A stretch of 64,000 bases of DNA from Ashinkailepas kermadecensis (Eukaryota > Arthropoda > Thecostraca > Neolepadidae): assembly GCA_034440615.1 (NCBI GenBank), contig JAOTOM010005108.1, positions 558,001 to 622,000 on the forward strand, in the 5' to 3' direction. The first letter of the stretch is position 1. Every line of letters begins with the position of its first letter. The position numbers and the translations under genes are program-made. Under the pieces are notes generated by a model that saw nothing but the letters and a program-made list of their open reading frames with translations, did no database searches and was not told where the DNA came from. This document shows, one piece after another, positions 1,709 through 44,240 of the stretch.

Positions 1709-2087
1709 TGCTCACATCAGCATCAGTTGAGTCAGCATAAGCATCAGTTGAGTCAGCATCAGCATCAGTTGGTCTCAGTATCAGTTGGCCTCAGTCTCAG
1801 TTAGCCTCAGCATCAGTCAATATCAGTATCAGTTGGCCAGATACTGCAATTCCACAATGGACCACTGGACGGGTCGTTCCAGTCGGCCAAGAGCGACAAA
1901 GCCCCTGCAGTCAGCATCAGTGGAGCTCTGTTCGGTCAACATCAATCGAGCTCTGTTGGGTCAACATCAGTCGAGCCGCTGCATGGCCAGCACCAGTCGA
2001 GCCGCTGCAGGGTCAACATCAGCCGAGCCCCTGCAGGATCAGCACCAGTCGAGCTATCCAGGGTCAGCACCAGTCGGCGGTGTAGTC
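1709..2087. repeat. ~26-bp minisatellite seeded by the terminal codons of PKN
   Basis: Degenerate tandem repeats of CAGCATCAGTTG/CAGCACCAGTCG type run rightward into the terminal coding exon. The best-conserved part (about 1,935-2,087) has units of 25-26 bp beginning GGTCARCAYCAGTCGAGC. The last unit is the exon itself: read on the minus strand it encodes TADWC and the stop codon. Downstream units keep the tract GACTGGTGCTGA, the DWC-stop core, or a near variant. The array therefore copies the 3' end of the open reading frame into the 3' UTR. Confidence 0.75.
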
Positions 2088-2207
2088 GAACTCTCTGAAC
2101 AGGCTCTGCTGTCGGCCGGTGAGGGGCTGGCCGGCCGGAGATGGTGACAGCACCGCGCGCTCAGTAGTGAACTCCTCCTCGAAATTCGACAGGTCTTCCA
2201 TGCTCCG
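2064..2207 (-). CDS. PKN: PKN kinase, terminal exon (AGC C-tail, turn and hydrophobic motifs)
   Basis: This 144-bp exon holds 47 codons plus TGA. It encodes RSMEDLSNFEEEF, then the proline-containing turn-motif segment AVLSPSP, and ends FREFDYTADWC-stop. That is the usual PKN C-tail, whose family members end in similar FxxFxYxAxWC tails. The acceptor is TCCATAG|CGG, phase 0, matching the phase-0 donor of the preceding exon. In PKN kinases this tail packs on the kinase N-lobe and carries the turn motif phosphosite. Its 3' end is the seed of the 26-bp array that follows it. Confidence 0.93.
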   Translation of the reverse strand, partial: RSMEDLSNFEEEFTTERAVLSPSPAGQPLTGRQQSLFREFDYTADWC

Positions 2208-3204
2208 CTATGGAACAAATTTTCGGCATCATCAGTGACTTTTGCGTGGCACATTATGGCAAGGATGTTCGAGTCCAACATGAATACACACACATAGGCA
2301 CCGGCATAGGCGCAGGATAGGCATAGGTCTTGGTGCGACAGAAAAATGTGGATGCGAACGGCAAGACGAACGATACTGGGGAGGGGTAAACTTGTTGCTT
2401 TCTCGGATACTGTTTTTTTAAAATAAATCTTTTGAATTTTCGTCTCTTCTGATTTCATTGCTTTGCTGTTCCAATAATTGTTTTCTTCTAAATACATCAT
2501 TGCTCTGATATTGACAAGAATCGAGAGCTTGCAGCAAACAGTTGTGTTTTGACACCAACGCAAAGGACCAGCAAGTGGCTTGTTGGCCCGTACACTGGAT
2601 CCCTGATTGCGTTTATTTGCGCTGTGTGTGTGGATAGGGGGTGGGAGGCGGGGCACTTGTATTGAAACCAATTATTCAATACAACTTCATAGTGTTTAAG
2701 GTGTTCTTCTGAAAAGTGAGGAGCGGCGGCTGTTCACCCATTCCGACGTCATTTCTCCATTGCGTACCAACACAATGCGGGAAGATAAACTTGTAGTAAT
2801 TGTTATGCCTTTGGGTGACGGGAATGTACTACACAATTAAATGACAACAGGAAGATAATAGGAGCAACACCTATTTGGTTGGTGTGTGTTTTATCCAATG
2901 CGATGCTTTAGCAATTCCTGTGACTTTAGGCCGAAATGCAAATGGAAAATATTCGCATTAATTTGTTTTAAATATGATCTAGCAGATACATGCTTGGTTC
3001 CTGACGTAAGTGCAAGGCGAAGGTTAAAGTCGCCGAACCGGAGCGGATTCATCTTTCACCGCTCAAAACTATGTGGATTAATTATTATTTTAAAAGGCGT
3101 GGGAAATCTGGTACGCAGGTAGTACAGCCTCTGTTCGCCCCATGGGTCGCTACGCTCACATGTATGGGTGTAACAGCGGCCACGAAGGGCAGCACGCTCG
3201 AAAC
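2208..3204. other. intron, nothing recognised
   Basis: Non-coding sequence between the terminal exon and the 28-bp minisatellite. I see no exon, element or repeat that I can name. Open frames on both strands are short and mutually inconsistent. Confidence 0.5.
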
Positions 3205-3755
3205 CGTGCCTACGGTCCTGGCCAGGACCGTGGACACGGGACAGCCTGGCCAGGACCGTGGACACGGGACAGCCTGGTCAGATCCGTGGACACGGGACAG
3301 CCTGGTCAGGACCGTGGACACGGGACAGCCTGGCCAGGACCGTGGATACGGGACAGCCTGGTCAGGACCGTGGACACGGGACAGCCTGGCCAGGACCGTT
3401 GGCACGGGACAGCCTGGTCAGGACCGTTGACACGGGACAGCCCCTGGTCAGGACCGTGGACACGAGACAGCCTGGTCAGGACCGTGGACACGGGACAGCC
3501 TGGTCAGGACCGTGGACACGAGACAGCCTGGTCAGGACCGTGGACACGGGACAGCCTGGTCAGGACCGTGGACACGGGACAGCCTGGTCAGGACCGTGGA
3601 CACGGGACAGCCTGGCCAGGACCGTGGACACGGGACAGCCCCTGGTCAGGACCGTGGGCACGGGACAGCCTGGCCAGGACCGTGGACACGGGACAGCCTA
3701 GTCAGGACCGTGGACACGGGACAGCCCCTGGTCAGGACCGTGGACACGAGTAGCT
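3205..3755. repeat. 28-bp minisatellite (about 19 copies)
   Basis: Tandem units built on CAGGACCGTGGACACGGGAC, with a 28-bp period; a few units are 30 bp where CAGCCTGG is CAGCCCCTGG. Units differ at only one or two positions. Because 28 is not a multiple of three and the unit lacks stops, all plus-strand frames and some minus frames stay open, giving low-complexity reading frames that are not genes. It lies in the last intron of the kinase gene, next to the 69-bp exon-edge repeat. Confidence 0.92.
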
Positions 3756-3776
3756 CAAATATCAACTACGGTGGGC

Positions 3777-3945
3777 ACGAACTGCTCTGCCTGGTTCGTA
3801 CAGCATTGGCAGAACACGAGCCACGAGGAACGGGTGGCTCACCACAGTGGGCACGAAGGGCGGCGGTGGCCGTCTGGCCAGAGCACGAGCCACGAGGAAC
3901 GGGTGGCTCACCACAGTGGGCACGAAGGGCGGCGGTGTCCGTCTA
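3777..3945. repeat. 69-bp exon-edge repeat copying the FVPTV exon end and its splice donor
   Basis: Two full copies (CCACGAGGAACGGG at 3,821 and 3,890, spacing 69) and a decayed third toward 3,777. Each full copy carries, on the minus strand, codons for PPPFVPTV followed by GTGAGC, the 5' splice site. The copy attached to the exon is taken as real; the next one is a duplicate donor still preceded by an open PPPPFVPTV segment. Confidence 0.85.
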
Positions 3946-4052
3946 GCCAGCAGCTGCTCCCAGTCGACGCTGCGGAAGAAGGTCTGCCGACGCACCTCCC
4001 AGGCTCCTCGGCGGCCCGACCCGAGCCGCTCAGCCGCCGACTTACGCAGAAG
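3912..4052 (-). CDS. PKN: PKN kinase exon (end of C-lobe, FFR...PPFVPTV)
   Basis: A 141-bp, 47-codon, phase 0-0 exon. The acceptor is TCTTCAG|CTT and the donor is GTG|GTGAGC. The product runs LLRKSAAERLGSG, RRQTFFRSVDWEQLLARR, PPPFVPTV. This is the end of the kinase C-lobe (normally LLRKNPERRLG) and the start of the AGC C-tail. The first part is somewhat divergent: SAAE replaces the usual NPER. The exon end is tandemly duplicated, so use of an alternative donor 69 bp downstream would add 23 codons in frame. Confidence 0.93.
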
Positions 4053-4398
4053 CTGAAGATGGTGACAACGAAACGTGACCAATGTGTCCCGCAGGTCGGA
4101 GCCTCAAAGATGGGAGGCAACGACAGGAAGAGCAATTCAATCGAGCGATAATGCCATCTTGTCTTGATTCGTGTGCAATGCCATTGACATAATTAGTTAT
4201 TTTCGGCGACTCAGTAATCTTTCGCACTCCCTGGAACAGCATACTTCAGTTATATTTGCTGATGTAAATGCATGCTATTGTTTCTCTACAGCACTGGAGA
4301 TGTCCACAACCCATGGATCTCTGGCTTGCTGTCTTTGCAATGTTATGTAGCATCGTAGTTTCCACCATTCTATTATAATATACAAGGGGTATTCATCA

Positions 4399-4842
<444 letters not shown>

Positions 4843-4977
4843 TTAGTTGTGCATCGCGGTGTATACACACATGCATGCATAAGTGCATGTGCGCAAACAT
4901 GCGCGCATACATGCATGCATATACGTGTACACCTACACACATGGATGCACATATACCTACATACATATGTGCATGCA

Positions 4978-5078
4978 TATTCACACTCACACTCACACTC
5001 ACACTCACACTCACACACACACACACAAACACACACACACATCTACACATACACACACACACGCAACACACACATACG
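4978..5078. repeat. CA-type microsatellite
   Basis: CACTCA and CACA dinucleotide tracts, continuing from a CATGCA-rich segment at 4,860-4,977. Simple repeat within the intron between two kinase exons. Confidence 0.9.
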
Positions 5079-6917
5079 TGTTTACCGTGACTACCGAGGA
5101 CTATGTCCTGGCGGTCACTAACGAGGACACCCTTTAGTTACCACCGGAGAAGCATCGATTTTTTCTCGGTGATAGAGCAAGATCTGCTGAGTAAGATGGA
5201 GGGTCAATTTGGGAAGAAGCATCCAATTGTTGGCTCCCAGTGTGAATTGAATTACCGAGGACATCGGCAAAACCGAGGACAGTGTGTGTCCATGGTTTAT
5301 CGTGCTTTGGACGGGTTATGAGCGATGTTAGGAAACCTTAGAGGGTATAATTCATCCCTCCACTGCGAGGTCCAAGCTAATCTAAGATATTCATTAGTAA
5401 CTCGAAGTATGCAGATGGGGATCAATCGCGACAGCTGATCACATGCAGCACGCTGACCTTTCTTTTGCTTCGTTAGCAATCTCCGCTTGGAATTACTTGG
5501 AGAGGTAGCACACATTTGTCAGATTGCTGGCTAAGGTGGCAAAATGCAATGCAATGTAATGTAATGTAAGTATATCATAACCTCGATAACCTTCCGTCTC
5601 CTTCCATGTCAGGCCAGTCACATGACACCTGACCCTTCACTTTATTCAGGGACTATTCCGATGTGCCATAGCAATGGATGGACCGGACGCCTCTCCCCAA
5701 AGAACTCGAAATCTCCTCGTGTCATTGCGCGCCGGCGACTGACCCTGGAGGCGGGTAGCGACGAACACACCTTACAACGGTGGTCTATGCCGTGTTGTGT
5801 TCAGCTCTATTTACAAAGCACTAATTTAACCGAATCATCCGTCGAATTGGCCGCTGAACGTCACGTTGCATTCAGAAGGCGAATCAGCACTTTAAGGCTG
5901 GTTTTCTGAAAAAAAAACATGAACAGGGTGTTCAGGCATTCTTCCCAGCCATGGCCATTCTGTATAAAATGTGTGTACAACATTTTGACAGTGTCAGAGG
6001 TACTCCCGCTGTGTCCCCCTTCCTCCGGTTCTAGCATCCCTGACGACAGTGATGACATGCACTGGCCTGGCCAGGAGCATCATAAAGTGCATGACCCCAA
6101 CAACTGACAAGGAATCCTGATTGATACATTTGAACGTGCAGAACGTATTCATCATGTTGGCCCCAGGAATGCTATGGAAATCGGCACCACTGAGTCACGT
6201 TTCAGAAGTATATTTGTTAGTTTTTCGAGTAATTTCGCCTATGTTAGCAAAAGCCGTGATATGCTCAGTTGTGATCACGCTGCAAGAAATCGGAAGCTCA
6301 TTGTCAGCTACTGCAGCCCCACACCTCGTGGTGCTCCCTGTCACATCAGTCAATATCAATTGTATGGTTAAAGTTGATGGAACTGTATGAACAGATGCGG
6401 CTGCGCCTCCCACTTAATCAAAGTTAAAGACAGATAATGTGGTGACCGTCACGTGTTGCCATATGGTTATGATGGAGTTCAGTATTGAACTCATGCAGTG
6501 CGAAACTCCCAAAGTCCGAAAGCCCCGAAACCATCAATCTATCAAGCTCGGCCTAAAATCCGAATACCTCAGAAGCTGAAAAAGATCATCCGAGGTTCAG
6601 CTAGACCCGTATCCTTTAATCCACCTTTAATCACTTTGGAAAAAAAACCTATGTATGCACAGCTGGTTAGTTTCAGCAAGCGAGGAAGTACTGCCACTAC
6701 ACCAGAATCTGGTTTGCTTCCACCATGAATGAAGGTTGTCTCATCCCATCAATAGTCCCAAACTTTATCGTCTTCAAATTGGAGTGGGTGTCCTGCAACA
6801 ACCTAGTATGATGATGATGATCATTTTTGTTCAGGAATCTGAACAAAGTCCTTCGTTGTCAGCGCGACGTATTCCCCGGGTATTAAACGGTGGAACATTT
6901 AACTTAGAGGTAATACA
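5079..6917. other. intron, no gene seen
   Basis: Unremarkable intronic sequence. Short ACCGAGGAC-type motifs next to the CA tract (5,090-5,280) recur near the next CA tract at 8,200-8,350, suggesting a dispersed repeat associated with CA microsatellites. No exon is supported. Confidence 0.5.
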
Positions 6918-7742
6918 TTAGCCCTTCCCGTCATTCCGGTAAGATCCTCACACCCCGTCACGGGGGAGGGGTGGGGGCTCATTATTTTACCATCTAATCT
7001 CCAAACTAAGCGTCGCACGAAACCGGAACATGTGTCATCGGAAAGCGCTCGACGAATATGACTAGAAACCACCCGCAGCATTTTATCATCTCAAAGTGTG
7101 ACGTCAACAGGGGGTATATGTGGTCACGATTGACGTCAAGTTGTATGCTCTGGGGAGTTTATTGTGTATATTTTAAAACCAAAACTTGCTTGGAATCAGA
7201 AAAGGACGACGAAATGAACCGCGGTGCCAAAATTTTCGCGCACTCGAAAATACAACTTTTTTTATTTCCAAAATGTTGAGTTTTCGACTTAATTACTTTG
7301 TTTGTGTCTGATAGAACACACCGAGAAACTTTGTGTTAAGTAAGATTAGCCCCATAGAAATTGCTTAACTTAGCAAGAATCTTCGTTATTTATCCCTAAT
7401 AGCAAATATGCAAAATAAGTAAGTCATCAAAAACGTAAGATTTCAAAAATTTCCCTGGGGCACTTTGTTGCATCTCTAAAAGTAAGCAATCGCTGAAAAT
7501 TTCATTCAAATATCTTCACCCGTTAAAGCGTGACGACTGGTTGAACATTTTTGGCGGTGACCTCACTTGACCTTAATTAACTCGGACCGTGAACGACCTG
7601 ACCTTAAAATTTTCACGAAGCATGTCAAATTGATGTAGGAACAGGTATGCCAATATTCGGCCCGCTGTTCCACGCTATTTTTTTACCATCCGCGGAAAAC
7701 CTAACGGGGGTGTAAAAAGATCCCCGATACTGCGCGGGTTAA
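6918..7742. mobile_element. TTAA-flanked non-autonomous DNA transposon (825 bp)
   Basis: The left end starts TTAGCCCTTCCCGTCATTCC and the right end, reverse-complemented, starts TTAACCCGCGCAGTATCGGG. The two ends stay alignable for about 45 bp (shared ATC..., ACACCCC, GT blocks). The TTAA-like flank and CCC-initial inverted repeat resemble piggyBac-type elements. There is no transposase. One flank is TTAG, a probable point change. Confidence 0.55.
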
Positions 7743-8370
7743 GATGCAAACCCAAAGATGTTTTAAAACGTACTTCACCTAAATATGTATGTAGGGCATC
7801 AGATGTTCTCACCCTCGGTTGCCTAGTTCTCTACCCTCTAATGCCTAGTTACAAAGTGTGGCCCTACTAGCTGTCTTAACTCCTATCTCCAAAACGTAGT
7901 CCTATCCCATCTCATTAGAATTGTAGAAATATGTCTAACCGAAGCGCCAATCCCTTTGCAAGAACAGATTTTCCCGAACGCGTGTACCGGCCGCCCGCCG
8001 CAAGCCGAGTCGGCCGGGGCCAAGTGGCGCGGCCGCCTCACTCCGGCACCCTGCCGACCTTGCACCAAGTTGCAAACCTGAGTAGTGGTGTCAAGTTGCA
8101 AACATGAGCGCGTCACATCTGTACTGCAACTTTCGGCTTGCTCACACTTTATCTGCACAGTACACACATACACTCATGCTGGACACACACGGTCACATAT
8201 ATGGTGAAAACTGAGGATGTCGAGAAAATTCGTCAGGGTACTGGTAAGCATCTGACGATGCTCCAGACGGAATTTGAAAACCGAGGACGTCAAAAAAATT
8301 ATCGGTATTCACTTCATGTCCTCGGTTGTCAGGTGTGCAAACAGAAAATGGCCTCGGTATGCACGAAGTA
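7743..8370. other. intron, no gene seen
   Basis: Non-coding. It contains a GC-rich patch near 7,980-8,060 and the ACCGAGGAC-type dispersed motif, but nothing I can name. Confidence 0.45.
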
Positions 8371-8376
8371 CAAGTG

Positions 8377-8580
<204 letters not shown>

Positions 8581-8800
8581 CAATGATCGTGCTTCAAATA
8601 CAACGAACACTTCTCCCAATTTTGCGAATTGTATTTCACTGAAGCCTGCCACATAGCGAAATTACACTCGCACCTAGCTCATTTAACATGTCATCCCCTG
8701 CAGTAACCGGCTTCCTTCACACACATAGACTATTATGAGCTTCAGGTACACCACCATAGCTGGCGAGAGAGCTAAGGCCAGTAACTGCCGTGCTCCATCA

Positions 8801-9103
<303 letters not shown>

Positions 9104-9400
9104 ACCACAGTACGACTTTAGGTCACGTCAGGTGTTAGCCATGGTCATGATTAGCTATGGCAGGGTACCGGTGGCGTGGCCTGAGCAGGCATACACTCTA
9201 GCTGCTGTAGTTGCATTCTCAGTCTCGCGGGTTGCAGGATGCAATTCGATCAGCACCGATAGCTCAGCGTAACATGACTAAAGGAAATATGTTATCTTTT
9301 AAGTGATTTAGTCAAAGTTATCGATTTATAGAGCTGCCAATTGCTGCCTCCATGACTGATGTAATGAAACATTAACACACTCTGCTAATTCCCCGGTCCC
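9104..9400. other. intron, nothing recognised
   Basis: Short intronic stretch between the acceptor duplication and the 69-bp donor repeats. No feature seen. Confidence 0.5.
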
Positions 9401-9404
9401 CCAT

Positions 9405-9777
<373 letters not shown>

Positions 9778-10149: not shown

Positions 10150-10227
10150 CTTACCGAAATGGCCGCGACCCAGCACGGCCACCGTCCTGAAGTTGTGCAG
10201 GCTGAGCCGAGGTGACCACGGGCTGGA
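10150..10227 (-). CDS. PKN: PKN kinase exon (glycine-rich loop)
   Basis: A small 78-bp, 26-codon exon, phase 0-0. It encodes SSPWSPRLSL then HNFRTVAVLGRGHFGK, the nucleotide-binding glycine loop GxGxFG of the kinase domain. The acceptor is CAGCTGAG|TCC and the donor is AAG|GTGAGT. This marks the start of the catalytic domain. Confidence 0.93.
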
Positions 10228-10498
10228 CTCAGCTGGCCTGTCTGCTGAAATCCACAGCTGAAATTGAGGAACGCCACTCTATTTTGATGCCACTAGCAGT
10301 AGCACTGCTACTGATGCATCCCGCTTAGCCATCAATCCAACGTCATAATTAATTCAATACATTTTCAAATCTCACATAATTGCAAATTCCCCAAAAGGGG
10401 AATTTGTAACCATGTGCTATTAGCAATGTTGCTACGCTTAGACAATTAACAATCATACATTGCCAATGAAAGAACAATGGTAATTTCGTACCATTATC

Positions 10499-14496: not shown

Positions 14497-14833
14497 CTCA
14501 TCGTCATCCGGCTCGTCCACCAGGGGCGCCCTGTCACTCCGGCCCGCAGACACGGATAGTCGGGCCGGTGTGCTGGGCGTGGAGTTCGCTGTCGACTCCT
14601 CCGTTATTTGGCGGACACGTGGGGTATGTGGCCCTCCACTCTCGGATCCCTCCATCGTTTGGCGGACGCGCGAAGTACGTGGCCTTCGGCTTTTTGATCC
14701 TCCAGTCATTCGGCAAACATGTTCAGTGCATGACGTTACACTGTCAGATTCGTCTGTCGTCTGGCGGAGACGTGGAGTGTGGGAGGTTTGATCCTCGGTC
14801 ATTTCTGTGATTTGGAGACATGTGCTGCAGTAC
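14497..14833 (-). CDS. PKN: PKN V3 linker exon with 17-residue repeats
   Basis: A 337-bp exon (1 + 112 codons) between the C2-like and kinase domains. The acceptor is CCCTCGCAG|G (an alternative 9 bp on, CTGCAG|C, keeps phase) and the donor is GAG|GTAAGC. The encoded linker is Ser/Thr/Arg-rich and contains four repeats of about 17 residues related to TPRVRQTTEES. It ends in an acidic DEPDDDE. Linkers here are poorly conserved in PKN, so identity rests on position and on phase agreement with both neighbours. TPR and RxxT-like sites suggest phosphorylation, an inference. Confidence 0.8.
14607..14770. repeat. 51-bp coding minisatellite (4 copies) inside the V3 exon
   Basis: TTTGGCGGACACG-type cores recur at about 14,607, 14,658, 14,709 and 14,760, an exact 51-bp spacing. 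The unit is a multiple of three and stays in frame, giving 17-residue protein repeats. Confidence 0.8.
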
Positions 14834-15129: not shown

Positions 15130-15161
15130 CAGGACTCAAGTACGGAAGTACTTGAGTCCTG
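15130..15161. repeat. perfect 14-bp hairpin with GGAA loop
   Basis: CAGGACTCAAGTAC and its exact reverse complement are separated by GGAA. As RNA on the plus strand this would be a stable stem with a GNRA-type tetraloop. It lies in an intron of the kinase gene; origin unknown (possible MITE core). Confidence 0.6.
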
Positions 15162-15710
15162 GTGGAGATCATCATTGGACCACAATCGATGTTGTCGAGC
15201 TTTCAAGGTTTCAACAAAACCACCCAAAACAAATGATGTGACTTCGCATCCAGCAAAAGGATTAAATATTCCGTAGTTGCAGGTCAAACAACTTCCGGAT
15301 AGCATCTCACCATCGCGCAATAGGCCAATGTGCGCTCCGTTGCGCCATACTTCTGTTTGTCATCGGCTCCGAGACATAAACAGTAGGATTTGCGCAAGAC
15401 GTAATCGGTTTGGTACAGCTGTGTGCAACGTTTTGACCAATGCACTTAAACAATCCTCGACCGTTTAAGGAATTGTTCTTCATCCAGTGATATAGACAAT
15501 GCATTAACCTAATGAGCTATTTGAAGATCTGACAGCAACGCACTGGTCGGTCTTCAGCTTCACCTTGACTCTGGATCGGCTTCAAGCCAGGGCAATTGCA
15601 TGCCACCGGGTCGGCGGGCCGGAAACGAATCGCCAACAGGCGGCTGTCTCTTCGTTCGACTGTGCGTTGGTGTGTGGGAGAGGTCTGGTGTAGAAGCTCC
15701 GACAGGGTGT
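15162..15710. other. intron, nothing recognised
   Basis: Non-coding stretch between the short hairpin and the homopolymer-rich block. No feature seen. Confidence 0.4.
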
Positions 15711-16244
15711 TTCCCCCCCCCCGGGTTTGGGCCCCCTTATCACGTCGTCCCCCCCGCCGGGGGCTGGGGACACCCCCCCCTAAAAAAAACCACAACAAAA
15801 TAAAAAATAAATTTGAGGCACCTCGCGACAACATTGCCATTGCTTTAAAAAAAACAGCGTAGGTAATGTACCAGAGCATGCAACCGAATCCATTCATCCC
15901 GCCTCGCCCCACACCATATCGTTCTCTGCACACTATTCTCTCTGCCTCCTTCATCCTATGGTCTCGAAATGACCAGAACAGACAGAAGAAACCTTCATTC
16001 AAAAAACAAACCGAACCATAGTATTCGCATTCACAGCCTTTAATTCCCCTAAACTTTTTAATTTTAAACTCGCGGTCACATGTGGGGGCCGTTTTTTAAA
16101 AATTTTTTTCAGAAAGGGGGAGGAGGGATATTTTTCTCCCATTTTTTTAAAACCCCCAAGGAATGGGAAAAAAAAAAAAAAAAAAAAAATTTTTAAATTT
16201 AAAAAAAAAATATCAAAAATGATAATATAATATAAAAAAAAAAA
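15711..16244. other. homopolymer-rich, possibly mis-assembled stretch
   Basis: Runs of C and G at 15,713-15,779, then A-rich tracts, and at 16,040-16,244 alternating blocks of T, G, C and A runs. This texture is unlike anything else in the window and resembles gap-filled or low-quality assembly. It abuts the truncated end of the 3' LTR, whose last ~50 bp and expected target duplication are missing. Confidence 0.5.
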
Positions 16245-16740
16245 TCGTCTCGATAACCCCTGTTGTGAAAGCACCAATGTCCTTTTAGCTGCCTGTATTT
16301 GCACTGCAGCACTCGTACGCACACACGAGACAGTTAGACGTAGTACAGAACTTTCTTCCCTATGAAGGAAAGCCGTGATATTGCCTTTATATGAATTTAG
16401 AGGCCGAATTTAGATGGAAAGTTAGCGCGCGCCGGACCGTCCAACACAGAGGTCCGCTCGCCTTGAGTGTCCAACCGCGACTCTCTGCCGGGCGCGCGGC
16501 CGCTGGCGACGTCCGAAGACCCCGGTCGCTTATTGGTTGAGACATCAGAAACGCCCATTTACGTGACATCCCTGTTCTAGAATGATCGAGTGCCTTCCAG
16601 ACCGGGAAAGTTGGCCTGCATTTAGTGACGGTAGCGATGTTACATTTACGGTATACTTTTACAATCTGTAGGTTTACGGGATTATTTCAATTACAGTTAC
16701 GGGATAGCCAAAGGTGTAATTTTATATGAACTCTGTTACA
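16245..16740 (-). repeat. 3' LTR, truncated at its outer end
   Basis: Colinear with 24,230-24,726. It begins TGTAACAGAG on the minus strand. It lacks the terminal ~47 bp present in the other LTR and runs into the A-rich low-complexity block, so no target duplication can be read. Confidence 0.9.
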
Positions 16741-18229
16741 TCACAACTGAGGTCCGAACAGATCGGATCAATTCACAGATTAATCCTGAGCTACCACTCA
16801 GACAAATCACGGCCTTTTACAATCACATACGAATCAACAAACAGTTACGATACGACAATAATTTAATACAAGTTCAGATTACACAGTTCTACGTAATTAG
16901 TCTAGGAGGTTTTAAGGGTTATCCAGTCTCTGATCCATGATAATGACTAAACAAGGTTCCTATTAACTAAACACAAATACAATTCTTCGCAAACAATTTT
17001 GGCGATCACTGTCGCGCACGCACTGTCCAAAGTTCAGTCCGGTTCGGGAAGGGGAGTATCTGAGCATGGCCGATCTTGCCATCTGCAGATCTTATGCCGC
17101 CCGGGGTGCGACACTCGACGTGGCCGCTCACTGTTCGACTCTGCGGCATTTACCGCATGTCACTCATCGGACTGAGTCACTGGTTAGGGTTACGACCCTG
17201 CCAACTGCGACGTTTCTCCATATACTTATGGAAGATCATGTCGCGTTCCATGATGTCCAGCTGCGAGAGCGGACGGTGATTCATCCATATCACCGCGGTG
17301 GCTTCCGGCCCACCGCTTGCTAGCTCGGCTGAGTCATCCATATGACCGCCCACTGCACCGGCAGTGGGGTGCTCAGGGACGGTGCTCGTCAGCACCGCTC
17401 CGTTGTGGCGCTCATCAGCGCCGCTACGTGGAGGCGCTGATCAGCGCCCGCAGCGGCGACGCTCGCATCCGCAGCGGGGCGCTGGCTTCCGCCGCGGCGA
17501 CGGTCAGGTTGCAGCGGGGCGTTTCCTCGGCGGCGCCCGCTGGCGCCGAGCCAACCGCCCAGTCGTCGAACTGGCCGGGTATAACGGCCGCTAGTGGGTC
17601 GTGTTGCAGACACTTCCTGTCTGGCTCTGCATGAGGTGGCCGCAGGTGGTCCACCTGCGGTGTCCTGTAGCAGCCGGTGTGACCGTCTCGTCACGTCCGG
17701 TCGTCAGCTCAGGTCCGTGCTATCAGCTGCGGGTGTCGGCGTGAGGCGGCGTGTTTACCGTCGGGTCCTGCGGGAACTGGCGTGACGGACTCGTCACGCC
17801 CGAGTGTCAAGTCGTGCTGATGCTGGCTCAGGACCAGGTCCAGGACGGATGATGATGATGTCTTCACCGAGCGGGAAGGGTTGGATGGTTTGGATTACAT
17901 TGTGGGTTCCAGGTACAAAACTCGGTTCAAAGATGCGGAAGCATAGGTCTGGGGTTGGATTTTGACCACAAATACACGTTACTAACAGTTGACAATATGT
18001 CACACAAGACATCAGGATAGGTGACGTCACAACGTAACATCAACATCATTACGCCCATATGGGGTTCCATCACAAGGTGCTGCACGCACCACGTCCATCA
18101 CATCGTCAATCAGGCCGGTAGGTGGCGTTATTCCGTCACCGGTTGTGGCGCCACTGCGTCAACAATACAGTTACATGTTCACATGAAGCGACTCACTGGT
18201 ACACTTCGACGACATATCTACTAGAGCCG
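16741..18229 (-). other. non-coding 3' internal region of the LTR element
   Basis: Between the integrase-tail reading frame and the 3' LTR. It is GC-rich at 17,390-17,690 with CGCTGATCAGCG-type palindromes, including a perfect 16-bp one at 17,433-17,448. No open frame is recognisable, and there is no obvious polypurine tract next to the LTR. Confidence 0.5.
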
Positions 18230-19744
18230 TTACGTAAGCAGCGATTGAAACATCATCATTTGTAATTTTAACTGCTTCATCATTGAATCATTTTGCATCT
18301 CCACAAAGCTTGCAAAGGCGTTAGCTTTATTAGGCGTGACGTCGACTTGGCCGACATCAGCTTCGTAATCAGTGGAAGTAGCGGAGTCATCGTGAATTTG
18401 AAGTTTACATGGAGGGCAATCCTCGTCAGATGATTCCACCAAAAGTCGTTTTTCAGGGATTGGCCTCACTGGGCTTTCAGTCGAGTCCTGCAGGCGTTTT
18501 GCTAATTCTGAAAGCGGAATTTCATCTTCCGATTCGCTGATTGGAGGTTTTGAACGTTTCGCTTATTGCGATTGTGAAGTTTCAGGGTCTGAATCACTGG
18601 ACACAGGTAAGGGTCGTTTTAAGCGTTCTGCTAATTCTGAAATGGGTCAATTGTCTTCTGAATCGCTCGAAGAGGGAAGTGGTCTTTTGTTTCGTTCCGC
18701 TGGTTCCGAAAATGGGGCGTCGTCGTCTGACTCACTAGTCGACGGCAACGGCCTTTTGTTTTTCTGGACTGGTTCAGACGGAGGAATGTCTGTCTCAGTA
18801 TCACTCGATACCGGTGGGGGCTCAGCTACATCTGCAGACTGGGTGAGAGGTGATCTCTCTGGCAGGTCAGACTCGAGCGGCAGTGGTTGCACCGAGCCAG
18901 GCACGGGCTCTGTCAACTCAGCGGTTTCATCATCCTTTGTTCTCTGTGGGCTGCATACGTCCATGGACCAATCCTCACAGGGACTGTAGTCAGGGCCGAC
19001 CTCGGCCCGTCTGGCTGACCTAAAAGGCTGCACTCGTTCAGGGACAGCACCATCTTTTGAAGTTTTCTCTAAATACTTCTGGTTCACCGGTTCGTCGTGG
19101 TCCTTGGTGTGTTCCCATGCTGTGTTCGGGTCGGCTAGCCGTAGTTTTTGTGCATGCACCAACCGGGTCTTACCGGAGGTCTGATTCCTGATCACATAAT
19201 TAACTGGGCTAGTTTGTTTGACAATCCGAAAGTATGGTTTGCACGGCAACGAGAACTTTGACGACGTGCCAGGTTGTACAGTTGTGTCATAATAATACAC
19301 GGGATCTCCAAGTTTGAAATTTCGCGGCTTGGCTTTTCGGTCTGCGTACTCACGGTTCCGTTCATGGCTCAACACAATGTGTGTCTTTACATGGCTGTAC
19401 GCTTCATGTAAATTAGACGGCATTTTTGGGACATAGTCTTCTCCGTAATATTTCATTTTGGGCTGGAGCAATTTGTCCAGGGGGAGAACGGGGTCTCTGC
19501 CGTACAGTGTGAAGAACGGCGAGATGGTTCCAGAGCTTCCAATGTTAGCGGTCCCATAGGCGGCAAGAGTAGCGGGAATCTTTGTGTGCCAATCATCTTG
19601 ATTTTTGTTGATTGTTTTTGCCAATATATCGTGTTGGCACCTATGGTACCTTTCGCAGCGTCGGTTACTTTGTGGCCGATATGCACTGGTGGTGATATGG
19701 CGAATTTTCCAGGTTTCCAGCTCGTCTACAACAGCATTTCTAAA
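18230..19744 (-). pseudogene. retrotransposon integrase, C-terminal part with acidic repeat tail
   Basis: It covers the end of the integrase core, including a CERYHR segment where the catalytic Glu is expected, and a GPY/F-like module (CKPYFRIV...). An unusual long tail follows, with about five repeats containing KRPLPSSSDS/ESDDD. A stop at about 18,647 interrupts the tail, which resumes and ends near 18,230. Frame breaks separate it from the N-terminal part. The tail has no obvious homologue; phosphorylatable Ser-acidic clusters suggest a chromatin- or targeting-related role, which is speculation. Confidence 0.8.
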
Positions 19745-20266
19745 TTATGTTCCTAAGTCCGAAAATATTACGCGTGGACATGAGTGGCGTGGGTTGATTT
19801 CTACCATAAGGATTTTCGCGACAGTATGGGCATCCTTTGGCTTAGTGCAAAAACTTTCCGGCCAAGAAGAAAACAAGTCGATGATTGTGATGACGTAACG
19901 GTAACCTTGTTGCGTTTCTGGGTACGGTCTACACTTGTCAATCGCAATCATTTCAAAGGGATAGTGAGGTACTGGCATCTCCTGCATCGGGGCTGGGGCT
20001 GCTTTGGCTTTGCGTCCTGTGCAAGGCACGCAAGCTTTGAGGTAGGCCACTATGTCTCTCCACATTCCGTTCCAATAATATCTGAATTTAAGGTTTTCGT
20101 ATGTTTTGGTGAGTCCCATGTGTCCTGCAAAGAAACCTTCGTGCATCTCCTTCAATACTTCCTGTCTCAGGGATTTTGGCACGCATAGTTGTAAGCCTGG
20201 AAATGGTCCACAGTGAGGTCCGTCGCTAATTTTGTAGATCAGTTTGTCCAATTCAATGTAATGCAA
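19745..20266 (-). pseudogene. retrotransposon integrase, zinc-binding and first core part
   Basis: 173 codons open. The HHCC zinc finger is present (H...H with HEGFFAGH, then CVPC). The core shows the first Asp (AIDKC) and second Asp (FSDLG), after which a stop occurs. Integrase joins element cDNA to the genome. The break makes this copy non-functional. Confidence 0.88.
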
Positions 20267-20399
20267 GACGATGTCCCGATAATCTGAGTGATTTTGTCAT
20301 TCATGATCTTCCGAATATTTGCTATTTCCTCATCTGTACTCTGCAGTTTCGCAATATCCTCCCATTTCACTAGTACATCCTTAAATTTTTCCTCTCTGC

Positions 20400-20756
20400 T
20401 CAGGTCTTCCTCTGGTTTGCCGAATTCGGTGTGACGAGATCACCCATTGGAACATGGTCTGAATCTATGATGTTCACGTCTTGGTCAGTTTCGTGCATTC
20501 TACTGAGGTGGTCGGCGACAATATTTTTGCTTCCTTTAATATAAATGATTTCGCAGTCGTGCTCTGAAAGCATGATAGCCCATCTCTGCAACATTGGATT
20601 TTTCATTTCTGACAGGTTCAGAAAGGTAAGTGGACGGTGATCGGTCAGAATGGTGAATTTCGATCCAAGCAAATATTGGCGTAATTTTTGCACACTTCAC
20701 ACGCACGCATAAGCCTCCTTCTGTACCACGGGCCATTTACGTTGTGTCTCATTCAA
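20400..20756 (-). pseudogene. retrotransposon RNase H, C-terminal part
   Basis: Contains LTDHRPL and ADHLSR, typical of Gypsy RNase H. It is split from the upstream YTDAS segment by a stop and frame change. RNase H removes the RNA strand during reverse transcription. Confidence 0.82.
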
Positions 20757-21770
20757 TTATTTCGACAGGTACTGTACTACTCTTTCACCTTCTCCGTGTT
20801 CCTGCACTAATACGGCTCCAACTGCTTCCTGGGAGGCATCCGTGTATAATTTGTACTCTTTCGTGAGGTCGGGATAAGCCAGCACGGGTGCGGAAGCTAA
20901 TTTTCGTTTCAAGGTTTCGAAAGCATGCTCACACTCGTCTGTCCATTTAAATCTTGCATGTTTCTTGGTGAGGTTTATTAGTGGCGTGGATATTTTGCTG
21001 AAGTTGGGAATGAAGCGACGGTAGTATGAACACATACCGATGAATGAGCGGACTCCCTTGACATTGGTCGGGGCGGCCATATGTTGAATCGCTTCAACTT
21101 TCTCGGAGTTCGGCTTGATGCCAGAGGCTGACACTAGGTGTCCCAAGTACTGTACTCTTTCTTTCAAGAAGTCACATTTCGACAGTTTTAGTTTCAATTT
21201 CGCTTTTCGCAGTCTGCGGAAAACTTCTTCAAGATGGGCCAAATGTTCGTCAAACGTTTTGGAGTATACTATTATGTCATCGATGTAGGCTGTTGCAAAC
21301 TGATTTTGAATGCCAGACAGTACTTTGTTCATCAGTTCTGCAAATTTTGATGGTGCATTGCAAATTCCGAATAGCATTTTGCGAAAGTTCCACAGGCCAA
21401 GAAAATAAGTGAATTCTGTTTTTGGAATACTCTCCTCGTACATCGGGATTTGCCAATAACCAGCTTTCAGGTCCAAGGACGAAAAGAAGTTCGCACCTCC
21501 CGGAGAGGCAAGAATGTCCTCAATTAGCGGGAGTTGGTAGCTATTTTTCTTGGTCACCTTGTTTAGTTTTCTGAAGGCAATCGCGAATCTGTTGCTTCCA
21601 TCCTTTTTGCGAACAATCACTATCGGGGCGGCCCAGGGACTGTCTGAGTCCTCAATGATACCGGCGTCTAGCATCACTTTAATTTGTTCCTCTACGTATT
21701 TTCGCTGAGAGAATGGGGTTTTGTAAGGTGCCTGTCGGATCGGCGGGTTGTCTCCAGTGTCAATGTCCAT
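20757..21770 (-). CDS. retrotransposon reverse transcriptase (open segment)
   Basis: 337 uninterrupted codons. Visible RT motifs are SSLDLKAGYWQIP (motif A Asp), FGICNAP (motif B), YIDD (motif C), and the connection to RNase H with YTDASQEAVGAVL. The catalytic Asp residues are intact. FAIAFRKLN replaces the common D-Y-RKLN motif, so one conserved residue is lost. It is the best preserved part of a broken pol. Confidence 0.92.
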   Translation of the reverse strand: MDIDTGDNPPIRQAPYKTPFSQRKYVEEQIKVMLDAGIIEDSDSPWAAPIVIVRKKDGSNRFAIAFRKLNKVTKKNSYQLPLIEDILASPGGANFFSSLDLKAGYWQIPMYEESIPKTEFTYFLGLWNFRKMLFGICNAPSKFAELMNKVLSGIQNQFATAYIDDIIVYSKTFDEHLAHLEEVFRRLRKAKLKLKLSKCDFLKERVQYLGHLVSASGIKPNSEKVEAIQHMAAPTNVKGVRSFIGMCSYYRRFIPNFSKISTPLINLTKKHARFKWTDECEHAFETLKRKLASAPVLAYPDLTKEYKLYTDASQEAVGAVLVQEHGEGERVVQYLSK

Positions 21771-21881
21771 TTTGATGACATCAGTCGTTCGAAGATCTGC
21801 ATCGGTCTCGGCAAATAAATCAATGTTTGCACGTAACAGCTGTTCTAGGCTGTCTTTGTCAGCACCAAGCGGTTGGCGTTG

Positions 21882-22758
21882 TCAGTTCAATGTCCGTGTC
21901 ATATCAATCAGGTTTTCCAAGTCAGAATCGTCTATTGTCTCAGCGAATGCAATCACCTGCTCTGGGTGCAAGGAGAAATCGCGAGTTGTAGTATTGACAA
22001 TTCGCACTGGTACGCGTTTGTGTTGGTCAGGTTTCGCTATTATTTCTGCTATGAACAAGCCAGGTTCCTCCGAGATCAGTGGCATGTTATCCAGCGAGTG
22101 TACATGACAGTTTTGATCTACTAGTTGGACACGGTTAATTAAGGCTGGGCATTCCACGACAGTGTTGGCGGGAATGTGAATTTTTCCTTGACTCGGACGA
22201 GTGAGCTGGTCGGTTCACTGTTCTGTTTTTGCGGTCTTATAGGAATCATGTTTCCTTCGATGCAGAGGGCTTTCTTCTCAAAATCTAACTTCACTCCAAA
22301 CTTCGTCAAAAAATCATTTCCCAACATGCACTCCTGTTTTAGGTCCTCCACAATTTGAAATTCGAACGGTTTTCGGAATTTGCTCATCTCCACCATGAAG
22401 GTTCCAACTCCAATGTTTTTCAGCCGTGGCCACTGGCGGATATCAGTGGTATGCAAACCCGTCGGTCCTGTGAGAAATTCATGATATTTTTCTCCGCGAT
22501 TTTATCAAATAATTTTTTTATCGAAATCAACGATATGTCGGCTCCGATGTCCACGAGCGTATATGCTCTTTGGTTGCTTATATGAAGCCAAGCCATGGGC
22601 GTGTTTGCCTTGATGTGAACTTGTTGGACGCGTGCAAACCTTTGTCTACGTTTTTCGGGGTTTGGCTTTTTCCTGATATTCTTACTCTGTTTTCTCGTTA
22701 TTTCCTCTGTCTGAATCTGCTCAGCTCCATCACGGTGGTCAGTCGCGACAGAGCTCAT
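21882..22758 (-). pseudogene. retrotransposon protease and pol N-terminus, broken
   Basis: The protease active site reads LVDIGADIS, with the usual D-S/T-G-A changed to D-I-G-A. LGNDFL follows in another frame, and at least two frame changes are needed to reach RT. Its start ATG overlaps the gag stop (ATGA), suggesting a pol start by frameshift or re-initiation in the intact ancestor. Confidence 0.8.
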
Positions 22759-23753
22759 TTTTTTTCTGACTGGCTAATAGGCTGAAAGCGGCATCGTCTT
22801 CCAATGTGACCAATTTTGGCACACTTGATACAGATGGGTCTACCATCGGGAGTCTACCAGCGGTAAGCTGGGTGCTGGGCGGTGTTGGGTGGTGCTCTCC
22901 ATACTCTGGGGCCCATAGGAGGTCGTGGCTGTGGTGGTCCATAGTGGGGTACTGACTGAGGTGGTGAATACTGCGGTCCTGACTGAGGTGGTCCATAGTG
23001 CGGTCCTGAGGGGTAGGTTCGTGGCGGACGAGGGTAACGTGGGTAAGATGGATGGAATACCCGTGGTCCAGGCTGAGGTTGGTTCTCCCTGGGTGGCTTC
23101 TCGGTTTCTAGCTTTGACGCTGCTAATTTTTCCACTGATTGGCCTATTGCCATTACGAGTTTTTCCAATTTCTCTACCTTGTCCTCTCCTGTGTCTGGCT
23201 GATTAGAGTCGACTTCCATTGGCTCATGCCTTTGCACTCCTCTGCAAACCTCAATGACTCTGTCTACCTTCTGTTTCTTCACTGCAAACTGGATGGCTTC
23301 CTCCAGGGTTCGGAAATTTTGTCTGTATAGCTTATTTGCTAATCAGCTACTTTGAACACCTTTATTAAAGATATCAATGAGTATTTGCTGAGTCGTGGGA
23401 TTTTCGACATCTGAGTAAGCTTCGCGTGCCAGAGCGATCAGTTTCTCCCCGAAGTTCTGAACAAGCTCATTGCGAATCTGGTGCATTTTTCGCAATCCTT
23501 CCTGTGCACATTTATTGTCCGAGAGGTCCGAATATCTTTCCCGTATGACTTGTTTTATTTGTGCCCAGGTCATCTGTGGTTGTTCCGTGAATACGCGCTG
23601 CATAAATTCGGCTGCTGGTCTCGTGAGCGTTTTGATGCAAATTATCTGCATCTGTTCGTAATCCATGCTGAAGTTAATTCGTTCAAGTTGCCGTATCAAT
23701 TCAATTAATCTATTATGTCCATCACCAGAAAAAGGTTTGAAATTTTGGGTCAT
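22755..23753 (-). pseudogene. retrotransposon gag, two internal stops
   Basis: The capsid-like part (23,346-23,753) is followed in the same frame, after a TGA at 23,343-23,345, by a Pro/Tyr-rich segment with YGPPQ repeats. After a TAG at 22,854-22,856 comes a zinc knuckle of C-x2-C-x4-H-x4-C spacing (CIKCAKIGHIGRRC). Gag packages the element RNA. The stops make it a pseudogene. Confidence 0.85.
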
Positions 23754-24163
23754 ACCCTATGCCCGCATCACTAAGCGAATTTTGTTGAAACACTCCGCCA
23801 ATTTATCCGAAGAAATCTCAGTCAGAATTATTTACGTTAAGTTACGCCATATTTTTCAAAATTATTCGCTCCCTTTGTGGAGATTTCTACGTTTCAAATT
23901 CGGCTCGAGGTTCACACAGTAGTTCCCACACACAGTATTCAAAACACGGTAGGTACACAGCACAATTATGCAATTTTAAAACAGTTCTAAGCGGTCAAAA
24001 TCCGGAAATGGTATTTTAAAAGGATGTTGGATTTTGCTCGGACTTACGTAAATGAAGCGGAAGACGTTTCCTTCCCCATCCGTGCTGAAACGGCGTGATT
24101 GAAGGTCCAGTTGGTGTTCATCTAGATGGGCTTGCAGAAAGTCGTAGAAATTCTCGCAGAAAG

Positions 24164-24180
24164 TCCGCGTCGAGGCACCA
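24164..24180 (-). other. primer-binding site of the LTR element
   Basis: TGGTGCCTCGACGCGGA on the minus strand, two bases after the end of the 5' LTR. It starts with TGG, the complement of a tRNA CCA end. I could not assign the tRNA. Confidence 0.7.
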
Positions 24181-24182
24181 CT

Positions 24183-24726
24183 TGTAGGAAAGTTCCTATA
24201 TCGGCTTGAGTGATAGTCTAATGAACTTCTCGTCTCGATAACCCCGGTTGTGAAAGCACCAATGTCCTTTTAGCTACCTGTATTTGCACTGCAGCACTCG
24301 TACGCACACACGAGACAGTTAGACGTAGTACAGAACTTTCTTCCCTATGAAGGAAAGCCGTGATATTGCCTTTATATGAATTTAGAGGCCGAATTTAGAT
24401 GGAAAGTTAGCGCGCGCCAGACCGTCCAACACAGAGGTCCGCTCGCCAAGAGTGTCCAACCGCGACTCTCTGCCGGGCGCGCGGCCGCTGGCGACGTCCG
24501 AAGACCACCGGTCGCTTATTGGTTGAGACTTCAGAAACGCCCATTTACGTCACATCCCTGTTCTGGAATGATCGAGTGCCTTCCAGACCGGGGAAGTTGG
24601 CCTGCATTTAGTGATGGTAGCGATGTCACATTTACGGTATACTTTTACAATCTGTAGGTTTACGGGATTATTTCAATTACAGTTACGGGATAGCCAAAAG
24701 TATAATTTGATATGAACTCTGTTACA
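24183..24726 (-). repeat. 5' LTR, complete, abutting a kinase exon
   Basis: On the minus strand it begins TGTAACAGAG and ends TTTCCTACA, a TGTA...TACA boundary. The first base after the host codon sequence CGG CGC A is the LTR T. The LTR then supplies GT AACA at the position of the exon's splice donor. Confidence 0.88.
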
Positions 24727-24868
24727 TGCGCCGCAATGGCCGCCACCAGGTGGCCAGCGCGATGTTGGTCCGATTGGGGTGCAGCACCACCTTGTTCCTG
24801 CACCTGTAGATCTTGCGCTGACGCTGCAGCCGGGACGACCGGGTGACCAGCGGATCCTCCAGCTTCAC
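24726..24868 (-). CDS. PKN: PKN C2-like domain exon (end), donor inside LTR
   Basis: A 143-bp exon (47 codons + 2). It encodes VKLEDPLVTRSSRLQRQRKIY and ends NIALATWWRPLRR. This matches the PKN C2-like C-terminal segment and the basic stretch after it (QRQKKIF ... NIATWGRLVRR). The acceptor is GTCGGCAG|GTG. The only phase-compatible donor I see is AT|GTAACA, where GT is bases 2-3 of the LTR; splicing to 14,833 restores frame as Met. Confidence 0.9.
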
Positions 24869-25361
24869 CTGCCGACGGAATGGTTGAAAAGAACGGCTGG
24901 AAAGCAGAGGCGCAGTCGAGGAGGGCAGGGGCCCTGGCGCGCACTTGCGACCGAAAATACACTAGATCAAACAAAAATGTTGAGATTTTCAACGCACAAA
25001 AACCGAATTTTCGGCGCGCTTTCATTGCGTTTTTTTTTGTTGGCAGCCATTCACCTTAGAAACATCCTGGCTGAGCCATTGTTGGAAGGGTTCAGTCGGC
25101 TGTGAAAACGTCAGTGTTCGTATCGAAGACTCCCATGTAAGTTGAATCACCTAATCTCAAAAGTTAAATGTATAATAATACAGCGAAGGGCCCTGTACCT
25201 GTATCAATGATAGTTGACATTGCACAGATTGCATGGTCTGAAACCGTGCGTGCAAATTATTCGAATTAAATACATGAGCAGGTTCACATCCAAGAAAGCA
25301 AAAAGCAGACTTCAAAGTTAGATATTGGGCACGCGTCCATTACGAAGTTGAATCGGGCGAC

Positions 25362-25490
25362 CTGCATAAATAGAAGTCCTCCGGGCTGCAGACGCAGAGT
25401 TAATTCTTCCGCCGTGAGCTCGATCAGCTCCTCCAGTTGCAGAACTTTGACCGCACACCGTCCCCGCCTGTCCCGCCAGAAGATATCCAC
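25362..25490 (-). CDS. PKN: PKN C2-like domain exon (middle, VDIFWRD)
   Basis: A 129-bp, 43-codon, phase 0-0 exon. The product is VDIFWRDRRGRCAVKVLQLE, then LTLRLQPGGLLFMQ. It aligns with the PKN C2 segment VxWRDxRxLCAVKxLRLE...LEPQGxLFAE. The acceptor is ACCCCAG|GTG and the donor CAG|GTCGCC is weak but lies at the conserved junction. The exon start seeds the 81-bp array that lies immediately upstream in the transcript direction. Confidence 0.92.
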
Positions 25491-26200
25491 CTGGGGTCAC
25501 AAAGCGTGAATAATATGTAACGCGAACAAGCTAGGTGCCATCCCACACCTCTCCGGCCAGAAGATGTTCACCTGGGGTCACAAAGCGTGAATAATATGTA
25601 ACGCGAACAAGCTAGGTGCCATCCCACACCTCTCCGGCCAGAAGATATCCACCTGGGGTCACAAAGCGTGAATAATATGTAGCGCGAACAAGCTAGGTGC
25701 CATCCCACACCTCTCCGGCCAGAAGATGTTCACCTGGGGTCACAAAGCGTGAATAATATGTAACGCGAACAAGCTAGGTGCCATCCCTCACCTCTCCGGC
25801 CAGAAGATATCCACCTGGGGTCACAAAGCGTGAATAATATGTAACGCGAACAAGCTAGGTGCCATCCCACACCTCTCCGGCCAGAAGATGTTCACCTGGG
25901 GTCACAAAGCGTGAATAATATGTAACGCGAACAAGCTAGGTGCCATCCCTCACCTCTCCGGCCAGAAGATGTCCACCTGGGGTCACAAAGCGTGAATAAT
26001 ATGTAACGCGAACAAGCTAAGTGCCATCCCTCACCTCTCCGGCCAGAAGATGTCCACCTGGGGTCACAAGGCGGGAATATTATGCAACGGGAACAAACTA
26101 GGTTCACAGCTCCCACCTCTCCCGCCAGACGATGTTCACCTGGGATCACAAGGCGTGAATATTATGTAACGCGAACAAGCTAGGTACAGATTCCCCATAG
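25470..26200. repeat. 81-bp exon-edge array (9 units) with decoy micro-exons
   Basis: CACCTGGGGTCAC recurs at 25,488, 25,569, 25,650, 25,731, 25,812, 25,893, 25,974, 26,055 and 26,137: 81-bp spacing (82 for the last). The first is the real exon acceptor. Every unit has, on the minus strand, CCAG|GTGGAYATCTTCTGG (or a variant), then GAGAG|GTGAGG or GTGTGG, i.e. a splice acceptor, about 23 nt of exon-like sequence and a potential donor. Units alternate GATATCC/GATGTTC, so the higher-order unit is 162 bp in the proximal part. Confidence 0.92.
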
Positions 26201-30750: not shown

Positions 30751-30764
30751 TTAAAAAAGCACAC

Positions 30765-43184: not shown

Positions 43185-44240
<1,056 letters not shown>

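Follow-up and report, generated by a model that had tools for sequence, protein, structure and literature searches.

Exons of a protein kinase N (PKN) gene are joined to tandem copies of their own edges, and such arrays are not private to this gene: they are also found in a canonical PKN paralogue and in myosin genes of the same genome. This occurrence in other sampled genes suggests that exon-edge minisatellites are a by-product of a minisatellite-rich genome rather than of a process directed at exon borders, a reading to which we assign a probability of about three in four. The arrays, their seeding by exons and their presence in other genes are observed, as is their frequency at exon edges, which lies below that in introns and above that in exon interiors.

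The window gene and its edge arrays

Eleven exons of a PKN gene, and not the twelve counted in an earlier sequence-only reading, were placed on the minus strand of the window (the whole stretch of 64,000 nucleotides analysed here) from their splice sites and open frames and from their similarity to PKN of other arthropods. Open frames run through ten homology-supported exons; the linker exon, without homology support, was placed solely by its splice sites and open frame.

2064..2207, minus: terminal exon with stop codon (FREFDYTADWC*); splice sites, frame, homology
3912..4052, minus: FVPTV exon; splice sites, frame, homology
4495..4822, minus: kin2, the catalytic-loop exon; without edge copies (blastn)
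8802..8953, minus: hinge exon (SHVCFVMEY...); splice sites, frame, homology
9568..9747, minus: QTS exon; splice sites, frame, homology
10150..10244, minus: glycine-loop exon; without edge copies in this gene (blastn)
14497..14833, minus: linker exon, with an internal 51-bp repeat; open frame and splice sites
24726..24868, minus: C2b exon, adjoined by a long terminal repeat (LTR)
25362..25490, minus: C2a (VDIFW) exon
42245..42369, minus: C2 exon; homology; without edge copies (blastn)
42602..42699, minus: preC2 exon; homology; without edge copies (blastn)

The predicted product is a PKN, with a C2-like domain before a PKC-like kinase domain and a Pkinase_C tail. The latter two are matched in Pfam (PF00069, E 4e-60; PF00433, E 5e-9), and the C2 exons upstream of the kinase exons are matched by tblastn, with Pfam's own C2 match falling under its cut-off. 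The best PDB matches are PKN2 and PKN1. HR1 exons, present in the canonical paralogue, were not seen among the matches listed for the window or among those listed, for 3 of 10 query proteins, in the next 80 kb upstream, and may sit further upstream. The open frames and a dN below dS in the kinase exons (0.19 and 0.63) only suggest that the gene gives a regular mRNA. Both PKN genes group with Daphnia (98/87) and away from Branchiostoma, the window gene on a very long branch, and the named proteins among 120 listed matches of a protein search are from arthropods. Amphioxus, considered as host on account of the literature on its 'mirages', is ruled out by these matches and this grouping; the host is an arthropod, probably a crustacean, with a barnacle or a member of another crustacean order as candidates.

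Arrays were called with TRF, and edge copies were sought by blastn of the 11 exons with 60 bp on either side against the window. Both bear out the proposal that five exons are joined to tandem copies of their own edges, copies being found at exactly five of the 11 exons (5/11, not 5/12). The following arrays were found by both methods:

1910..2076, minus: 26-bp array; final 13 coding bp with the stop codon, into the 3' UTR
3810..3950, minus: 69-bp x2 array over the FVPTV donor (GTG/GTGAGC); 39 bp exon and 30 bp intron
8903..9095, minus: 101-bp x1.9 array over the hinge acceptor (TTGGCAG/AGTCACG); 51 bp exon and 50 bp intron
9457..9625, minus: 69-bp x2.5 array over the QTS donor (ACATCG/GTAAGC); 58 bp exon and 11 bp intron
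25467..26185, minus: 81-bp x8.9 array over the C2a acceptor (CCCCAG/GTGGAT); 29 bp exon and 52 bp intron

Four of these lie at splice junctions as proposed, whereas the terminal one lies at the stop codon and 3' UTR. It is in the exonic copy that the conserved protein sequence is retained, and the exon must therefore be the source of each array. By eye, the junction of the QTS donor array has a 6-bp microhomology (GGCCAC). In the FVPTV array the frame stays open through copy 2, whose inclusion would lengthen the protein by 23 residues without a frameshift, while the upstream hinge or C2a acceptors, if used, would bring in stop codons. The distal units of the C2a array are more diverged than the proximal ones, and the intron that holds this array also has a degraded stray unit 8.7 kb farther upstream:

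34872..34932, minus: stray C2a acceptor unit; blastn 80% over 61 bp, E 1.35e-11

In the same blastn search of the window, the glycine-loop, C2 and preC2 exons gave no other match; further matches were confined to an internal palindrome for kin2, the retrotransposon LTR for C2b and the internal 51-bp repeat for the linker. A 28-bp x19 array at 3217-3748 was considered as a derivative of the FVPTV edge and rejected, as 176/2000 shuffles and 15/253 GC-matched 69-mers scored equally well.

Edge arrays against chance and in other genes

The excess of edge arrays in the window itself (5/22 edges) is marginal. When its 23 arrays were placed at random outside the retrotransposon (2000 placements), a mean of 1.70 spanned edges was expected in the whole window (P(>=5) = 0.046) and 1.30 in 1-36 kb alone (P 0.014), these P values being uncorrected for the selection of the window by the earlier reading. 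With the overlap between array and exon capped at 60 bp, a limit taken from the data, the means fell to 0.44 and 0.36 (P 0.0005 for the whole window; 0/2000 placements for 1-36 kb). Nearby intron points were flagged at 3, 1 and 3 of 22, and arrays cover more of the DNA in the 100 bp next to exons than farther out, a lean opposite to that of canonical PKN. Compared with myosin, the window edges differ at P 0.049 if 12/148 myosin edges are taken, a count that includes one donor later dropped (L083), and at P 0.15 against the 15/148 flagged by script.

Minisatellites make up 47% of the DNA at the canonical PKN locus. Edge copies occur at four of its 28 edges, a set that includes three HR1 exons with edges placed by eye, and mostly at edges other than those affected in the window gene: the preC2 acceptor, the glycine-loop acceptor, the C2a donor and, as a short match, the FVPTV donor. 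The last is the sole affected edge common to both paralogues, and its intronic repeat parts look different. The script used for myosin flags 7, 6 and 6 of 28 intron points and 0/14 exon middles here, and array coverage declines from 0.58 at 1-2 kb from an exon to 0.195 within 25 bp. TRF arrays span 3/22 edges against 10.0 expected under free placement (P(<=3) 0.003); with exon overlap limited, no edge enrichment is seen (1.56 expected, P 0.21). Near cases at this locus, in which an array lies next to the C2 acceptor or the C2b donor or an HR1 acceptor has a weak copy, were left uncounted.

The genes sampled were PKN and myosin; 125 kinesin exons were also located in the same genome. Among 77 myosin exons on 18 contigs, with edges called by a simple script, 15/148 edges were flagged, and 11 were kept after reading, on 10/18 contigs. 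The same script flags 34, 35 and 36 of 148 points lying 100-200 bp inside the introns and 0/77 exon middles. The difference between edges and intron points has P 0.002-0.005, the edges alone having been read by eye. In the first 60 myosin loci, array coverage climbs with distance from exons. At least three myosin edges were misplaced by the script (L040, L072 and L083). At L040 the array ends before the acceptor; at L083, a borderline case that was dropped, the script put the donor within the array, the real one lying upstream; at L072 the real acceptor was read by eye and counted. The L061 and L063 donors were dropped as weak, and at L101 the AG is mutated in the copy. Arrays that fall short of a nearby splice site (L035, L040, L049, L053 and L082) were left uncounted.

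Origin and persistence of the edge arrays

We propose that the genome makes short tandem duplications, mostly of about 20-100 bp, in non-coding DNA at a high rate, probably through microhomology or slippage at the junctions. A duplication inside an exon would be removed, whereas one straddling an exon edge would be tolerated by selection because one intact junction survives, and could then expand to an array via slippage or unequal exchange. Each copy would carry the exon edge, usually with a splice signal, so that the gene would have to keep choosing the exon-proximal copy; we infer that this choice is made correctly. Splice dinucleotides are intact in 54/57 aligned copies from the window, canonical PKN and myosin (the later-dropped L083 included), compared with 84.6% of 2653 other dinucleotides in the same set, and these decoys thus escape purging. 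Because AG and GT are kept in the copies, the splicing noise envisaged by the sequence-only reading is plausible on sequence grounds.

That reading had favoured a mechanism aimed at exon/intron junctions, in which R-loops or transcript-linked breaks, to which splicing-coupled damage can be added, would promote duplication at exon edges. The window lends this some support, with 5/22 edges against 1-3/22 intron points and an excess over placement both free (P 0.046) and limited to 60 bp of exon (P 0.0005). Outside the window the expectation reverses: myosin intron points are flagged more often than edges (34-36 against 15 of 148), the 3/22 spanned edges of canonical PKN lie below the 10.0 expected (P 0.003) or, with limited overlap, do not significantly exceed 1.56 (P 0.21), and array coverage declines toward exons. 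Targeting of this kind is thus improbable, even though a lower observed rate may be compatible with a raised birth rate at edges if selection removes most edge duplications. Somewhat less unlikely is relaxed constraint, whereby a fast, probably truncated PKN paralogue keeps duplications that would be purged in the canonical gene. The very long branch, the HR1 exons not seen among the listed matches and the marginal difference from myosin (P 0.049, or 0.15 against the script's count) fit this account; the open frames of ten exons, the low dN relative to dS and the edge arrays of conserved myosin exons speak against it. Wherever the window exceeds the genome rate, relaxed constraint would account for it, and it can add to genome-wide minisatellite birth.

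A selected role, in which copies act as alternative splice sites or contribute new exon sequence in frame, agrees with the open frame through FVPTV copy 2 and the intact dinucleotides, but the stop codons behind the upstream hinge and C2a acceptors, and the fact that the paralogues share only the FVPTV donor, with different-looking intronic repeats, make it very improbable. We give least credence of all to misassembly or collapsed haplotypes. Such errors could be hinted at by the presence in the assembly of at least one pair of nearly identical loci (L103 and L104, which align over 562 columns with one gap and no mismatch) and by sequence of poor appearance at 15.7-16.2 kb. Against them, substitutions distinguish the copies, divergence within the 81-bp array is greater distally, and the same kind of array recurs on 12 contigs (10 myosin, 2 PKN).

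Exon edges might, as we tentatively and with some doubt put forward, be a standing source of minisatellites (about 1 edge in 13 in the sampled myosin) that leaves a very large number of exact, unpurged decoy splice sites next to the real ones. Were the proximal copy always used, this would be a natural experiment in which position or exon definition, beyond local splice sequence, decides; were it not, it would be a live factory of new exon/intron boundaries. Such a genome would allow tests of splice-site choice among identical tandem copies and of whether junction-crossing tandem duplication supplies new introns and exons, and automated gene prediction in it may set exon ends wrongly.

Comparison with known systems

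A literature search on barnacle, genome, minisatellite and intron returned no papers. In the human IFI6 (6-16) gene, a single-gene case with a 12-bp unit, the repeats of a splice-donor minisatellite presumably offer many donor-like sites at the exon end, as here. The hinge duplication resembles intron gain by tandem duplication (the Rogers model) in crossing a boundary and carrying a 3' splice site with some exon; a new intron results there, whereas the duplication here is known from DNA. Human internal tandem repeats of minisatellite type, some at exon-intron boundaries, likewise have units (about 30 bp on average) able to alter exon/intron structure (PMC2812944); those lie in recent segmental duplicates and have transcripts as evidence, unlike the repeats in our sampled genes of one genome.

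The closest parallel is with the amphioxus mirages, which two reports describe as tandem, minisatellite-like duplications over exon-intron boundaries with units of 10-160 bp, in Adh3, the globins BflGb6/BflGb9, TnC and PGBD5 (PMC3087553, PMC3902484). The likeness drawn by the sequence-only reading holds in structure: acceptors and donors are both spanned, unit sizes fall within that range, and splice signals recur in many copies. It stops short at the stop codon array, as four of the five window arrays span a junction and the fifth, over the stop codon and 3' UTR, falls outside the definition. Mirages are further marked by array lengths that vary among haplotypes or somatic cells and by continued production of the regular mRNA; the arrays here are those of an assembly, whose near-identical locus pair L103/L104 holds no array. 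The host also differs, an arthropod and not a cephalochordate, although the structural definition names no host. The cited reports describe mirages in just a few lancelet genes, whereas the present sample takes in many exons of a single genome and yields a rate (11/148 edges kept, 15/148 by script). Their independent presence in another phylum, where about 7% of the myosin edges sampled are affected (10% by script) and two paralogues are hit mostly at different edges, suggests that mirages arise generally where minisatellites are born at a high rate.

Copied exon edges in the window PKN gene

The minus strand of the window carries a segment of a protein kinase N (PKN) gene, with eleven exons placed through splice sites and open frames. 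Arthropod PKN proteins support ten of these in tblastn, the linker exon being the one without such support. The joined protein contains Pkinase and Pkinase_C domains, and its best matches among solved structures are PKN2 and PKN1. HR1 exons are absent from the matches listed for the window and from those listed for the next 80 kb upstream, which cover three of ten queries.

The five arrays that the sequence-only reading reported at exon edges of this gene are confirmed by TRF and blastn. The repeated segments take in the following lengths of coding sequence:

Terminal exon, stop codon: 13 bp
FVPTV exon, donor: 39 bp
Hinge exon, acceptor: 51 bp
QTS exon, donor: 58 bp
C2a (VDIFW) exon, acceptor: 29 bp

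The residues that the exonic copy encodes are conserved among arthropods, so this copy must be the source of the arrays, and the intronic units must be derived copies. Within the C2a array, units near the exon look almost uniform by eye and those distant from it more diverged; a stray, decayed C2a unit lies in the same intron, 8.7 kb upstream. Read by eye, the QTS duplication joins exon to intron at a shared GGCCAC, and the hinge duplication carries a short filler resembling neighbouring exon sequence, a pattern that end joining with templated insertion would leave. The reading frame remains open in the 69-bp FVPTV duplicate; upstream hinge or C2a acceptors, if used, would bring in stop codons.

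We further note these features of the window:

15700-16240: homopolymer-rich stretch beside the LTR, looking like poor assembly
16245-24727, apparently PKN-sense strand: Ty3-like retrotransposon, LTRs 97% identical (483/498 columns); no clear target-site duplication found by eye
25467-26185: donor-like GAG|GTGAGG 23 nt past the acceptor in some C2a units
28400-30700 and 38000-41700: kilobases of degenerate ~20-bp GC-rich repeats, seen by eye, mostly below the TRF threshold
30700-34200: GGTACC-rich sequence, by eye two diverged inverted copies, between the C2a array and the stray C2a unit
43196-44193 and 49739-50880: GAGATA and AGAGAC microsatellites, kilobase-scale

The retrotransposon edge adjoins the C2b exon end, so the C2b donor would come at or from the LTR. 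Each C2a unit with the donor-like motif might, in principle, serve as a microexon. The GGTACC-rich pair is perhaps a palindromic mobile element, and ORFs around G000:C4611:664800-667300, in the same genome, resemble the degenerate ~20-bp repeats.

Edges, introns and exon interiors in other genes

The genome sampled comprises 907.7 Mb in 4689 contigs. Its canonical PKN gene, which has HR1 exons, sits on contig C3354 and has ten exons in common with the window gene, seven of equal length and three (glycine-loop, C2b and preC2) of differing length. Tandem or nearby copies occur at four of its 28 edges:

preC2 acceptor
glycine-loop acceptor
C2a donor
FVPTV donor (short match)

The FVPTV donor is the sole edge affected in both genes, and its repeat looks different in the window; the edge duplications of the two genes are therefore read as independent events. 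Minisatellites make up 47% of the 120 kb canonical locus (C3354:40001-160000, loci L003-L014; 61% GC), where a single 70-bp array (131546-141495) is ~10 kb long. In the kin2 (catalytic-loop) exon, a central stretch of about 110 bp is identical between the paralogues (window 4495-4822 versus locus L004), with flanks at ~76-83%, which suggests gene conversion.

A myosin-head search of the genome gave 78 exon matches; one intronless match was excluded, and 77 exons were fetched with 300 bp of flank on each side. A script identified 148 splice edges, 15 of which it flagged because a local copy spans them; 11 of the 15 were kept after reading, across 10 of 18 contigs. Two examples are:

L050, donor side: CCCAGCAG|GTGAGG x8
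L061, acceptor side: TTTACAG|CCATGTCGG x8

The same script flagged none of the 77 exon middles, and 34, 35 and 36 of 148 intron points at 100, 150 and 200 bp. The control counts stand as the script gave them, with no pruning by eye, so the fair comparison sets them against its 15/148 (Fisher P 0.005, 0.003 and 0.002). Myosin edges are thus hit less often than introns, but far more often than the interiors of exons. Counts for the canonical PKN gene are 4/28 at edges, 7, 6 and 6/28 at intron points and 0/14 at exon middles, and for the window 5/22, then 3, 1 and 3/22, and 0/11. In the canonical gene, as in the first 60 myosin loci, TRF coverage drops toward exons, whereas the window shows the opposite trend (0.23 within 100 bp of exons versus 0.10-0.16 farther out).

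At the spanned edges of all three sets, window, canonical PKN and myosin (locus L083 included), 57 copies were aligned, and AG or GT is intact in 54 of them, compared with 84.6% of 2653 other dinucleotides; as copies are non-independent and alignments must span the junction, biasing toward intact AG/GT, we claim only that decoy splice dinucleotides are not purged. The kinesin exon regions of loci L103 (contig C4390) and L104 (C325) are identical except for one gap, so the assembly may retain some haplotype pairs, which would permit comparing arrays between alleles.

Junction targeting or pervasive duplication

A mechanism aimed at exon/intron junctions, as proposed from the window, is unneeded for the sample. 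Duplication would be pervasive across the genome, with intron points free of selection, while selection would tolerate part of the edge duplications and purge those in exon interiors. Pervasive duplication with selection explains the sampled genes; an elevated birth rate of duplications at edges may nevertheless be masked by selection.

The window's excess of edge arrays over expectation is marginal. With free placement P is 0.046, for 1-36 kb by itself 0.014, and with exon overlap limited to <=60 bp, a limit derived from the data, 0.0005; 5/22 window edges versus 12/148 in myosin gives P 0.049, and versus the script's 15/148 P 0.15, all of these being unadjusted for the locus having been the sequence-only reading's pick. 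Relaxed constraint may also contribute to the excess, the paralogue being fast-evolving and perhaps truncated, although its kinase exons still have dN 0.19 versus dS 0.63.

Host lineage and known systems

The host is an arthropod, most likely a crustacean. This placement follows from the matches to the window gene, where the proteins with names in the best 120 of 6761 are arthropod; from the canonical paralogue, which shares 71% identity with a Daphnia protein over its whole length and 63-64% with Branchiostoma; and from a tree of 30 proteins that groups the window gene, on a very long branch, with its paralogue and Daphnia (support 98/87), far from Branchiostoma.

Judged by titles and abstract openings, the open-licence papers listed include no report of junction-spanning minisatellites in arthropods and no genome-wide rate for them. 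A potato gene is reported to have gained an intron via tandem duplication across an intron-exon boundary (PMC4974935), and in human, repeats at boundaries can reportedly change gene structure (PMC2812944). The nearest known kind is the mirages of amphioxus, described in the globin genes BflGb6 and BflGb9 and in Adh3, TnC and PGBD5, whose length is reported to differ between haplotypes in some cases and to leave regular splicing undisturbed (PMC3087553, PMC3902484); the exon-edge arrays described here occur in a different lineage, that of an arthropod.
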